64,000 nt of DNA from NCBI RefSeq assembly GCF_009650215.1, contig NZ_CP045851.1:3127001-3191000 (forward strand), read 5' to 3'. Positions 6,150-26,768 of the stretch are shown piece after piece (positions within the stretch are counted from its first letter, which is position 1; each line of letters begins with the position of its first letter). This stretch comes from Actinomarinicola tropica (GTDB lineage: Bacteria > Actinomycetota > Acidimicrobiia > Acidimicrobiales > SKKL01). The translations under genes were made by a program, and so were the position numbers. The notes beneath the pieces are model-generated. The model saw only the letters and a program-made list of their open reading frames with translations, was not told the origin of the DNA and searched no databases.

Positions 6150-7355
6150 GTGCCCACCCCACCTCTCGACGCCGACGTCCTGGTCGTCGGCGCCGGCATC
6201 GTCGGCCTGGCCACGGCGCGGGCGCTCCAGCACGCCGAACCCGCCCGCCGGGTCGTCGTGGTCGACAAGGAGCCCGACGTGGCGTGGCACCAGACGGGGC
6301 GCAACTCCGGGGTGGTGCACTCGGGCGTCTACTACCGCCCCGGTTCGCTGAAGGCCCGCCTCGTCGCCGAGGGCCGCGCCGAGCTGAGGGACCTGTGCCG
6401 CGACCGCGGCCTCCCCTTCGTCGCGTGCGGCAAGCTCGTCGTGGCGACCCGACGCCAGGAGCTCGACGCCCTCGACGAGATCGAGCGACGGGCCGAGGCG
6501 AACGGCGTGGCGGTGGAGCGGCTGGGCCCGGAGGGCATCCGCGAGGTGGAGCCGCACGCCGCCGGTCTCGCCGCCCTGCGGGTCCCGAGCGCCGCGGTCG
6601 TCGACTTCGGGGCCGTCGCCCGGGCGTTGGCCGACGACGTCCGAGCGGACGGCGAGGTGCGTCTCGGCGCCGCGGTCGATGCCCTGCGGCCGACGAGCGC
6701 AGCGGTCGAGGTCGACGTCGGGGACACCACCCTGCGAGCGGGTCAGGTGGTGAACTGCGCGGGCCTGCACGCCGACGTCCTCGCTCGCCGTGCCGGCCAC
6801 CGCAGCGACGTCCGGATCGTGCCGTTCCGCGGCGAGTACCACGAGCTCGCGCCGCATCGTCGGGAACTGGTGCGAGCCCTGATCTACCCCGTCCCCGACC
6901 CCCGCTTCCCGTTCCTCGGCGTGCACCTCACCCGGATGGTCGACGGCAGCGTGCACGTCGGGCCGAACGCCGTCCTCGCCCTGGCGCGCGAGGGGTACCG
7001 CTGGCGCGACGTCGACCTGCGGGAGGTGCGCGAGCTCGCCGCGTCGCCGGCCCTGCGGGGCCTGGCCCGCCGCCACTGGCGCACCGGGGCCGGCGAGGTG
7101 GCGCGGTCCGCCAGCCGGCAGCTGGTGGCCCGCACCGTCCGACGACTCGTCCCCGGCGTCGGGGCCGACGACCTCGTCCGCGCCGGGGCCGGCGTGCGGG
7201 CCCAGGCGTGCCGTCCGGACGGCACGCTCGTCGACGACTTCGTGGTCGAGCGCTCCGGCCGGATCGTGCACGTGCTGAACGCCCCCTCGCCGGCGGCGAC
7301 GGCCTCCCTCGCCATCGGCCGGCACGTCGCCGGCCTCGTCGACCCACATTCCTGA
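6150..7355 (+). CDS. lhgO: L-2-hydroxyglutarate oxidase
   Basis: A 401-residue FAD-dependent oxidoreductase of the DAO family that oxidises L-2-hydroxyglutarate to 2-oxoglutarate, passing electrons to the quinone pool or oxygen. The dinucleotide-binding motif GAGIVGLATAR lies at residues 15-25. The LhgO-specific stretch HQTGRNSGVVHSGVYY follows, and then GSLKARL and CGKLVVAT. PFRGEYHEL and the C-terminal VRAQACRPDG also fit the family. The GTG start at 6150 fits a leaderless mRNA from TACGTT. Its stop codon lies inside a strong inverted repeat (7348-7372) that may end transcription before the peroxiredoxin gene. Confidence 0.87.
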   Translation: MPTPPLDADVLVVGAGIVGLATARALQHAEPARRVVVVDKEPDVAWHQTGRNSGVVHSGVYYRPGSLKARLVAEGRAELRDLCRDRGLPFVACGKLVVATRRQELDALDEIERRAEANGVAVERLGPEGIREVEPHAAGLAALRVPSAAVVDFGAVARALADDVRADGEVRLGAAVDALRPTSAAVEVDVGDTTLRAGQVVNCAGLHADVLARRAGHRSDVRIVPFRGEYHELAPHRRELVRALIYPVPDPRFPFLGVHLTRMVDGSVHVGPNAVLALAREGYRWRDVDLREVRELAASPALRGLARRHWRTGAGEVARSASRQLVARTVRRLVPGVGADDLVRAGAGVRAQACRPDGTLVDDFVVERSGRIVHVLNAPSPAATASLAIGRHVAGLVDPHS

Positions 7356-7372
7356 CCGGCCCGGTCGGGAAT
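7348..7372 (+). terminator. Hairpin overlapping the lhgO stop codon
   Basis: Arms at 7348-7359 and 7361-7372 pair at 11 of 12 positions around a single C. There is no T-run after it. The TGA stop of lhgO (7353-7355) lies within the left arm. A terminator or processing hairpin ahead of the peroxiredoxin promoter is the simplest reading. Confidence 0.5.
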
Positions 7373-7434
7373 CGGCGCGCCTGCGTTACGCTGCACCGCG
7401 AACCCGTACGACGCACCGACGAGAGGACGTCTCC

Positions 7435-8070
7435 ATGGCACTGCACATCGGCGACACCGCACCCGACTTCACCGCCGAGTCCACCGAGGGAACGATCAAC
7501 TTCCACGAGTACCTCGGCGACGGCTGGGGCGTGCTGTTCTCGCACCCCGCCGACTTCACGCCCGTGTGCACCACCGAGCTCGGCCGGGTGGCGGCCCTGA
7601 AGCCGGAGTGGGAGAAGCGCAACGTCAAGGTCCTCGGCCTCTCGGTCGACCCGCTCGACGACCACCAGCGCTGGAGCGGCGACATCGCCGAGACCCAGGG
7701 CACGGCGCTCAACTACCCGCTGATCGCCGACCCCGAGCGCAAGGTCGCCGACCTCTACGACATGGTCCCCCCGGCGGCGGAGAACAACCTGACCGTCCGC
7801 TCGGTCTTCGTCGTCGGACCGGACAAGAAGGTGAAGCTGATCATCACCTATCCGGCGAGCACCGGGCGCAACTTCGACGAGATCCTCCGCGTGATCGACT
7901 CGCTGCAGCTCACCGCCGACTACTCGGTGGCCACGCCGGTCGACTGGAAGGACGGCGACGACGTCATCATCGTCCCCGCCGTGTCGGACGAGGAGGCCAA
8001 GGAGCGCTTCCCGAAGGGGTTCACCGCCGTGAAGCCCTACCTCCGGACCACCCCGCAGCCCAACCGCTGA
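7435..8070 (+). CDS. 1-Cys peroxiredoxin (Prx6 type)
   Basis: A 211-residue thiol peroxidase that reduces H2O2, organic peroxides or peroxynitrite in the cytosol. The peroxidatic cysteine is Cys45 in HPADFTPVCTTE. It is the only cysteine in the protein, and the long C-terminal dimerisation region (VDWKDGDDVIIVP, FPKG) is that of the Prx6 subfamily, so recycling must come from an external thiol. The ATG has AGAGGACG upstream. A possible -10, TACGCT at 7387-7392, would give a leader of about 36 nt, so unlike its neighbours this gene appears to have a normal leader. Positioned after lhgO, separated by a hairpin. Confidence 0.92.
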   Translation: MALHIGDTAPDFTAESTEGTINFHEYLGDGWGVLFSHPADFTPVCTTELGRVAALKPEWEKRNVKVLGLSVDPLDDHQRWSGDIAETQGTALNYPLIADPERKVADLYDMVPPAAENNLTVRSVFVVGPDKKVKLIITYPASTGRNFDEILRVIDSLQLTADYSVATPVDWKDGDDVIIVPAVSDEEAKERFPKGFTAVKPYLRTTPQPNR

Positions 8071-19763: not shown

Positions 19764-19828
19764 CGCCCTCCAGTGTGTCCCCTGCGCGGCGGCGCTGCGG
19801 CGGTACCCATCGACGCCGCGCCAATCTT

Positions 19829-19865
19829 GGTACGGATCGCGACACGCACGGTCGATCCCCGTACC
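19829..19865. repeat. Intergenic palindromic repeat, copy A1
   Basis: Arms 19829-19843 and 19851-19865 form an imperfect inverted repeat around the 10-mer core GGTACGGATC (19829-19838). The flanks TCTT before and CGGAA after resemble the other copies. It lies upstream of the S4 gene. Confidence 0.7.
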
Positions 19866-19905
19866 CGGAACGGATCGGAGCGGCGCACCCACGATCGGTC
19901 GGCCG

Positions 19906-19952
19906 TTCTGGGTACGGATCGCGACACGTACGGTCGTTGCCCGTACCGAGAA
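19906..19952. repeat. Intergenic palindromic repeat, copy A2
   Basis: Outer arms TTCTGGGTACGG (19906-19917) and CCGTACCGAGAA (19941-19952) pair at 11 of 12 positions. The interior shares GGTACGGATCGCGACACG with copy A1, 40 bp away. The pair occupies most of the gap between the macro-domain and S4 genes. Confidence 0.75.
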
Positions 19953-20006
19953 CGGACCGGACGGTGGGGAACGTCGGGGCGGCGTCGCGCATCGCCGGTG
20001 GGAGCG

Positions 20007-25469: not shown

Positions 25470-25501
25470 CCCACGGCCTGTGACAGCCAGCCCTGCCCGT
25501 C

Positions 25502-25563
25502 CCGTTCTCGGTACGGATCCGTTCTCGGTACGGATCTCGACGCTCCTGGTCGAGATCGGTACC
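25502..25563. repeat. Palindromic repeat copy B with tandem partial copy
   Basis: An 18-bp unit beginning CCGTTCTCGG and ending in GGTACGGATC occurs twice with a 17-bp period (25502-25519 and 25519-25536). The second is the left arm of a hairpin: 25527-25541 pairs with 25549-25563 at 14 of 15 positions, with a 7-nt loop. It lies 87 bp upstream of the AbiEi/DUF559 gene. Confidence 0.8.
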
Positions 25564-25649
25564 AAGATGCGACCGAGGGGCGGGGGCAGCGCGGAAGGGG
25601 TGCGGATGAGGGGCCGATGGGTGTCACAGGCCCCCGCCAGGATGGCGAC

Positions 25650-26594
25650 ATGCGCCCGACGATCCGACGGGCCATCGCCGAACGGGCCCAGGAACAGTTC
25701 GGCCTCGTCACCCGTCCACAGCTCGTCGCCCTCGGCGTCGACCCTGGCCAGGTCCACCGCCTGGTACGGACCTCGCACCTCGAGCGACGCGGCCGTCACA
25801 CGTTCGCGATCGCCGGGGCACCCCGCTCGTACGAGCAGTCGGTCCTCGCTGCGTGCCTCGACACGGGCGGCGTCGCCTCGCACCGGACGGCGGCCCGGCT
25901 CCACCGCCTCGAGGGCTTCCGATCGGTCGAGGTCGTCGAGGTCACCGTCGGCCGCCGCCTCCACCACGCGCCGCTCCCCGACATCACCGTCCACACGTCG
26001 ACGAACCTGCCGCCCGACGACGTCCTGCGCATCGGAGCGATCCCCGCCGTCAGCGCCGCCCGCACGTTCTTCGGCCTCGCGGCGCTCGTTCCCGACGTCA
26101 GCCGCACGAGCCTGCGGACAGCCCTCGACACCGCCGCTCGCGACGGCCTCGTCTCCGACGCATGGCTGTGGTGGCGGCTCGAGCAGCTGAGGTGCCGGGG
26201 ACGGAACGGCATCGCCGAGATGGAGCTCGCCCTGCGGGAGCGACAGCGCCTCGGACCGACCGAGAGCTGGCTCGAGCGTCGGTTCCTCGAGCTCCTCGAG
26301 GGAGCGGGGCTCCCGCTCCCCACCGTGCAGCGTCGCGTGCGCCACCGCGGCAACTCGGTCGCTCGGGTGGACATGTCCTACGACCCGCTCGACCTCGTCA
26401 TCGAGCTCGACGGACACGCCAGCCACAGCACCAGGGCGCAACGGGACCGGGACGAGCGCCGGCGCAACCGGCTGGTGCTCGCCGGCCTCCGGCTGCTCGT
26501 GTTCACGTACGACCACGTCGTCCGGTCGCCGCGCGAGGTCGTCGAGGTGGTCGAGGCCGGGCTCGCTGCGGCGACGGCCGGGCGATCGGCCTGA
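25650..26594 (+). CDS. AbiEi-like winged-helix protein with DUF559 nuclease-like domain
   Basis: A 314-residue protein. Residues 1-80 form a winged-helix of the AbiEi antitoxin type (QFGLVTRPQLVALGVDPGQV, then the RRGRHTFAIAG wing). A middle AbiEi-like domain follows. The C-terminal domain has DLVIELDG (Glu252, Asp254), then an Arg/Asp-rich helix with RDRDERRRNRL and GLRLLVFTYDHV, which is the DUF559/Vsr-like PD-(D/E)xK layout. It is a putative DNA-binding nuclease or orphan antitoxin; no AbiEii toxin is next to it. The ATG at 25650 follows CAGGAT by 6 nt (leaderless). The gene is bracketed by two copies of the GGTACGGATC palindrome, at 25502-25563 and 26611-26647. Confidence 0.8.
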   Translation: MRPTIRRAIAERAQEQFGLVTRPQLVALGVDPGQVHRLVRTSHLERRGRHTFAIAGAPRSYEQSVLAACLDTGGVASHRTAARLHRLEGFRSVEVVEVTVGRRLHHAPLPDITVHTSTNLPPDDVLRIGAIPAVSAARTFFGLAALVPDVSRTSLRTALDTAARDGLVSDAWLWWRLEQLRCRGRNGIAEMELALRERQRLGPTESWLERRFLELLEGAGLPLPTVQRRVRHRGNSVARVDMSYDPLDLVIELDGHASHSTRAQRDRDERRRNRLVLAGLRLLVFTYDHVVRSPREVVEVVEAGLAAATAGRSA

Positions 26595-26610
26595 CGCCCG
26601 GAGCCATCTG

Positions 26611-26647
26611 GGTACGGATCCCGACACCCGGTGTCGCGATCCGTACC
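26611..26647. repeat. Palindromic repeat copy C, best preserved
   Basis: Arms 26611-26627 and 26631-26647 pair at 16 of 17 positions around a 3-nt loop, with the core GGTACGGATC in the left arm and its complement in the right. It begins 17 bp after the stop of the AbiEi/DUF559 gene. AAGAACG follows, matching the flank of other copies. There is no T-run, so it is not a classical terminator. Confidence 0.8.
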
Positions 26648-26651
26648 AAGA

Positions 26652-26736
26652 ACGGGTTGGGGGGTCGGGGCGGGAGGCGAACGGGTCGGGGGGGCGGGTC
26701 GGGACGGGTGGGGACGGGTGGGGACGGGTGGGTCGG
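26652..26736 (+). repeat. G-rich tract with tandem GGGACGGGTG repeats
   Basis: About 85 bp almost without C- or A-runs on the plus strand and containing many GGG runs. The 10-mer GGGACGGGTG occurs three times in exact tandem at 26701-26730. The runs and short loops could form a G-quadruplex on the non-template strand ahead of the HAD gene. Confidence 0.7.
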
Positions 26737-26768
26737 AACCAGGACGGCGCGTGGCACAGTGTCCGGCG

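Follow-up and report, generated by a model that had tools for sequence, protein, structure and literature searches.

Hairpin-bracketed AbiEi/Vsr-type nuclease genes and their dispersed cognate palindromes: a candidate class of selfish elements in Actinomycetota

Introduction

The closest described counterparts of the locus reported here are REPtrons, in which RAYT (TnpA-REP) genes are found with GTAG-tagged REPs (PMC3733652, PMC8266576). The GTAG class has a candidate enzyme, a Y1 transposase; for most bacterial palindromic repeats the source of spread is not known.

We analysed a stretch of 64,000 nucleotides of the Actinomarinicola tropica chromosome (hereafter the window), in which a preliminary description had noted an AbiEi/DUF559 gene between two copies of a palindromic repeat. 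As in a REPtron, the palindromes that flank this gene are of the same type as copies dispersed in the genome. The gene itself does not encode a Y1/HUH transposase but an AbiEi_4 and DUF559 protein (PF01797 is absent), and the palindrome is a 53-bp unit with symmetric ends, CCGTTCT/AGAACGG, instead of a 20-40 bp unit tagged on one side only with GTAG or CGTC.

Results

The gene occupies positions 25650..26594 on the forward strand of the window and stands between two hairpins of one family, whose fold z-scores were computed as DNA. The left hairpin (25519..25571; covariance model R1, 67.8 bits; z = -3.5) is a 53-bp imperfect palindrome, CCGTTCTCGGTACGGATCTCGAC..GTCGAGATCGGTACCAAGATGCG, abutted on its 5′ side by an extra tandem outer arm on the forward strand (CCGTTCTCGGTACGGAT, 25502..25518, direct repeat D2). 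A gap of 78 bp separates it from the start codon, and the right hairpin (26603..26655, 53 bp; R1, 66.3 bits; z = -5.7) begins 9 bp after the stop codon. The spacings of 87 bp and 17 bp given earlier are correct when measured to the 10-mer GGTACGGATC. Both flanking copies are thus as first described, except that the right one runs 8 bp further than had been thought.

The consensus of the palindrome is CCGTTCTnGGTACGGATCGCGAC-7-GTCGCGATCCGTACCnAGAACGG and contains this 10-mer, which occurs exactly six times in the window (at 19829, 19911, 25510, 25527, 26611 and 26638-) where dinucleotide shuffles give an expectation of 0.07 +/- 0.26, confirming the excess noted before. The gene is indeed bracketed, but the other copies in the window form a doublet away from it: a decayed hairpin at 19821..19873 (R1; z = -0.25) and, 82 bp from it, a second member at 19903..19955 (R1; z = -3.8). 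About 21 more lie elsewhere in the 3.7-Mb chromosome, for a total of around 25 whole copies by the covariance model, mostly far from the gene.

Judged from their sequences, the neighbours of the gene are an lhr-type helicase and a HAD-type hydrolase. In a genome of the same genus, three other genes lie between these neighbours (G001, C2:5130-6875, corresponding to window 25493-26757). By eye, they include a DinB-like and a pyridoxamine-oxidase-like gene. The locus is possibly a hotspot of gene exchange.

The 314-aa protein matches Pfam AbiEi_4 (5.6e-6) and DUF559 (1.3e-4), both past the curated cut-off, with DUF559/MTES_1575 being the Pfam assignment of the C-terminal part; PADLOC gives an AbiEi match at 9.7e-22. 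Its AlphaFold model, which is confident (pLDDT 94.4), was compared with known structures by Foldseek, which matched the N-terminal fold to AbiEi of Streptococcus agalactiae and Rv2827c of M. tuberculosis (6y8q, 1zel), and the C-terminus to the catalytic domain of the I-Bth0305I homing endonuclease (3r3p, TM 0.69-0.72 on the target) and to E. coli Vsr (1vsr). The catalytic fold is Vsr-like, and acidic residues and a histidine are conserved in it. Among 44 aligned homologues Asp241 and Glu252 never vary, and His259, Asp268 and Arg271 rarely do. Of the two residues first suggested for mutation, Glu252 and Asp254, only the glutamate is conserved; a mutant of Asp254 would miss the probable active site, for which the alignments point to Asp241, Glu252 and His259.

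A number of family homologues carry an internal stop codon, which suggests frequent gene decay, as selfish genes would show.

The window genome encodes seven paralogs of the gene. A scan with the window-type hairpin gave nothing beside them and would have spoken for no link between repeat and gene, a reading we rejected once a de novo palindrome search revealed adjoining hairpins at all seven, each of a different type. Matching hairpins stand on both sides of five paralogs (L002, L004, L005, L007 and L008); the arrangement is not clear-cut at L003 and L006. Several of the paralog hairpin types are also dispersed in the window genome; those of L003 and L004 were detected nowhere but beside the gene.

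Two further arrangements were seen in the window genome (G000) outside the window: a tandem array of the L007 hairpin type with a 51-bp period (G000:C1:2781196-2781492) and, at L034, upstream of G000:C1:3203218, a row of several incomplete outer arms (TTCTCGGTACGCACGC) beside a full element. This row resembles the extra arm at window 25502-25518. Such half-units may have arisen from the reaction that spreads the element.

So that no examples had to be picked, we set the left flank (350 bp) of each of 86 family genes from throughout Actinomycetota against its right flank (350 bp), with mismatched left-right pairs as baseline and flanks displaced by 600 bp as control. For 50 of the 86 genes the likeness of the two flanks exceeds the 99th percentile of mismatched pairs, compared to 1 of 73 in the displaced control. 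Explicit hairpin pairs were delimited at 35 loci; they are usually 45-54 bp long, and the median distance to the gene is 83 bp for the upstream hairpin and 12 bp for the downstream one. The 36 loci without a strong left-right match are mainly outside Acidimicrobiales. Hairpin scores are high in this order, but in distant Actinomycetota classes most of them are low, so that pairing is a trait of some family members and not of all. An absence of any link, or a gene kept without the repeat, had been named as grounds for abandoning the idea of a unit; this is what we find only in part, as these 36 loci have no strong match and most copies are far from the gene.

The paired hairpins differ from gene to gene. 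For example, doublets that share the ends of the window hairpin, CCGTTCTnGGTAC / GTACCnAGAACGG, but not its interior stand on both sides of the nearest homologue detected (66% identity, from a different family of the order), and a frameshifted homologue with 32% identity in a genome of the same genus is bracketed by a third hairpin type. The outer ends GTTCT/AGAAC are common to many types. Across all loci the similarity of proteins and that of their hairpins are correlated weakly but above chance (r = 0.125; 74/5000 permutations), the weakness being due to the quicker change of the hairpins.

For scanning named genomes a broad alignment (A2) proved too diverse; with a narrower one we found 11 loci, all in Actinomycetota/Acidimicrobiia. 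Plasmids gave only weak N-terminal matches, in Rhodococcus, and phages gave no family matches. Two R1 matches 1.4 kb apart in G060 were rejected as a candidate unit, as there is no family gene between them. Further palindrome families with CCGTTCT/AGAACGG ends and other interiors were seen at G060:C27:147101 and 148522 and at loci in G070, G012 and G068 (L055-L076).

The copies of the window hairpin include six doublets, spaced 81-93 bp. Base changes among copies include no compensatory ones above shuffles and so lend no support to a conserved RNA structure; decay of this kind is as expected of mobile DNA rather than conserved RNA. At 22 elements no target-site duplication longer than 2 bp was found.

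Could the hairpins instead be control sites, with an AbiEi-type regulator repressing itself through the left one, the dispersed copies being its regulon and the nuclease domain secondary? AbiEi antitoxins bind inverted repeats at their own promoter, and the left hairpin stands at promoter distance. Yet the second hairpin follows the stop codon closely, the copies decay, and of 14 dispersed copies classifiable by rough gene calling, 13 lie in convergent or same-direction spacers and one between divergent genes. Moreover, the hairpin sequence turns over between relatives at one locus. At several orthologous loci where both relatives are occupied (L102/L167, L104/L133, L098/L103 and L099/L130), gene and hairpin have diverged together: the flanks are about 70-88% identical and the gene 65-68% (DNA), and the hairpin sequences are different. 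Such joint divergence could mean that units changed where they stood or that others took their place at a preferred site. We consider the operator explanation unlikely. The earlier choice between a "selfish or regulatory unit" is thereby narrowed: one gene-palindrome system stands, whereas regulation as the whole story leaves the right-hand and scattered copies unexplained.

Orthologous sites also differ by the presence of elements or of whole units. Two spacers in G002 are orthologous to element-bearing spacers and have no elements, and at the locus orthologous to L137, G343 has both neighbours, a methyltransferase-like gene and no hairpins. Empty and filled sites in relatives, the comparison suggested at the outset, therefore exist. 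A search for the precise point of an insertion found none; of the pairs tried the closest, G037/G119 (88-97% identity), gave only a composite site. No transposition event was seen.

An orthologous locus without the unit, the resemblance of the catalytic domain to a homing endonuclease, and the persistence of units at one locus in relatives despite changes in both gene and hairpin would all fit a homing or protection device. The nuclease would cut alleles lacking the unit, or foreign DNA, the hairpins would mark or protect self, gene conversion would spread the unit at a fixed locus, and the dispersed copies would be by-products. Such a device accounts for persistence at a locus but not for high copy number, and may be partly true; as the full explanation we find it improbable, because many genomes hold tens of copies away from the gene, unlike a strict homing element.

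Copy number was assessed with a generic pattern, GTTCTG-N34-40-CAGAAC, counted in 148 genomes of Acidimicrobiales, with the reversed pattern as control. The generic pattern reaches 68 copies per genome, followed by 49, 41, 28 and 26. The control gives 0-5 in the hairpin-rich genomes, and its maximum anywhere is 9, in a genome with one match. Among the genomes whose matches are listed, hairpin interiors are alike within a genome and different between genomes. In G028, two of the 13 copies (C108: 6997-7046 and 8012-8061) exactly bracket a family gene at 7063-7950.

High copy number is restricted to genomes with the family. All 19 genomes with at least 10 generic hairpins encode it, and at least 5 copies are found in 26 of 75 genomes with the family compared to 1 of 73 without a detected member (Fisher p = 3.7e-8, shared ancestry ignored). 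Together with the homologues bracketed by different hairpins, these hairpin-rich genomes strongly support the view, already put forward for the window, of gene and palindrome as one system.

The single exception (G077) has 5 generic hairpins and no family gene at E<=1e-5; its hairpins could be remnants, or it could have a diverged family member.

The same genomes bear on whether a Y1 (RAYT/IS200-like) transposase moves the hairpins, which would then be REP-type elements, with the AbiEi-DUF559 gene as a hitch-hiker. The size, doublets and intergenic position of the elements are REP-like. However, Y1 genes are not associated with hairpin copy number and are present in only 2 of the 19 hairpin-rich genomes. 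The absence of a transposase, first noted around the gene, extends for Y1 (PF01797) to the whole window genome. In addition, the elements have no one-sided GTAG tag and the hairpin type differs from one family gene to the next, which makes a Y1 origin very improbable.

Finally, ordinary transcription terminators or chance palindromes of GC-rich spacers are hardly credible in spite of the position of the hairpins near gene ends, as inspection of the sequence found no T-tract after either window copy and alike types, left and right of one gene and genome-wide, are not given by shuffles or displaced flanks; for paired flanks the flank test refutes this reading.

Discussion

These results are best explained, with a probability that we put at about 0.6, by a REPtron-like selfish system whose enzyme, a Vsr-type nuclease in place of a tyrosine transposase, would recognise the cognate hairpin and spread it. 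We propose that the N-terminal AbiEi-type winged-helix region binds the protein's own hairpin and that the Vsr/I-Bth0305I-like domain at the C-terminus makes a nick or cut in the hairpin or next to it, the substrate being probably an extruded or single-stranded cruciform. Repair or copying would then install further hairpins, for the most part in spacers close to the ends of genes. Under such a mechanism the hairpin would be the non-autonomous, high-copy part, and the hairpin-gene-hairpin unit the autonomous one. What the data demonstrate in these soil and water bacteria is the pairing of cognate hairpins at many family genes, dispersed copies of the same type, high copy number confined to genomes that encode the family, elements and units present or absent at orthologous sites, and gene and hairpin diverging together where a site is shared; binding, cleavage, mobility and the mechanism itself are what we infer.

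On balance we lean towards a wider reading, in which such units form a large and diverse class of bacterial selfish elements where an AbiEi-fused Vsr-type nuclease spreads a cognate palindrome. This class would correspond in function to RAYT/REP but use an unrelated enzyme; a genome would hold several independent specificities, and protein and hairpin would evolve rapidly and in concert.

Our results point to another class of enzyme, unrelated to the Y1 transposases, that has cognate repeats. They also suggest a function for the very common, uncharacterised AbiEi/DUF559 genes now labelled antitoxins or defence genes, labels that may mislead defence-system annotation. In addition, the several protein-hairpin pairs within one genome are a natural set for reading the evolution of DNA specificity. 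In the open-access literature (subscription papers and bioRxiv were outside its scope) our search found no report of AbiEi/DUF559 genes linked to palindromes, and the papers searched hold no description of such elements in Actinomycetota.

Compared to known systems, the unit differs from a DDE transposon or MITE in that the flanked gene does not encode a DDE enzyme and target-site duplications longer than 2 bp are absent from the 22 elements. MTES_1575-type conflict proteins have a related Vsr-type REase domain with winged helices, but there the domain sits in giant helicase/HEPN proteins, with no palindrome link reported (PMC3710099). With the AbiE type IV toxin-antitoxin system, the protein shares the N-terminal fold of AbiEi (6y8q, 1zel) and the PADLOC match; it differs in its nuclease domain and its cognate dispersed hairpins. 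Judged from their sequences, the neighbouring genes do not read as a toxin partner.

I-Bth0305I and the EDxHD Vsr-like homing endonucleases have the same catalytic fold (3r3p) and conserved acidic and histidine residues. Here, however, an AbiEi DNA-binding part is fused to that domain, the gene is free-standing, outside any intron or intein, and high-copy palindromes stand alongside.

Closest are the REPtrons, which likewise combine a palindrome-flanked enzyme gene and type-specific pairing with non-autonomous dispersed copies, single or in doublets, that lie in spacers of the convergent or same-direction kind. The enzyme here is an AbiEi and Vsr-like PD-(D/E)XK protein where that of REPtrons is HUH/Y1, and the palindrome measures about 47-53 bp and has ends that resemble each other, in many cases GTTCT/AGAAC, where a REP has 20-40 bp and a one-sided GTAG tag. 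The system would work like REPtrons (PMC3733652) while departing from them in two defining features, the enzyme and the tag.
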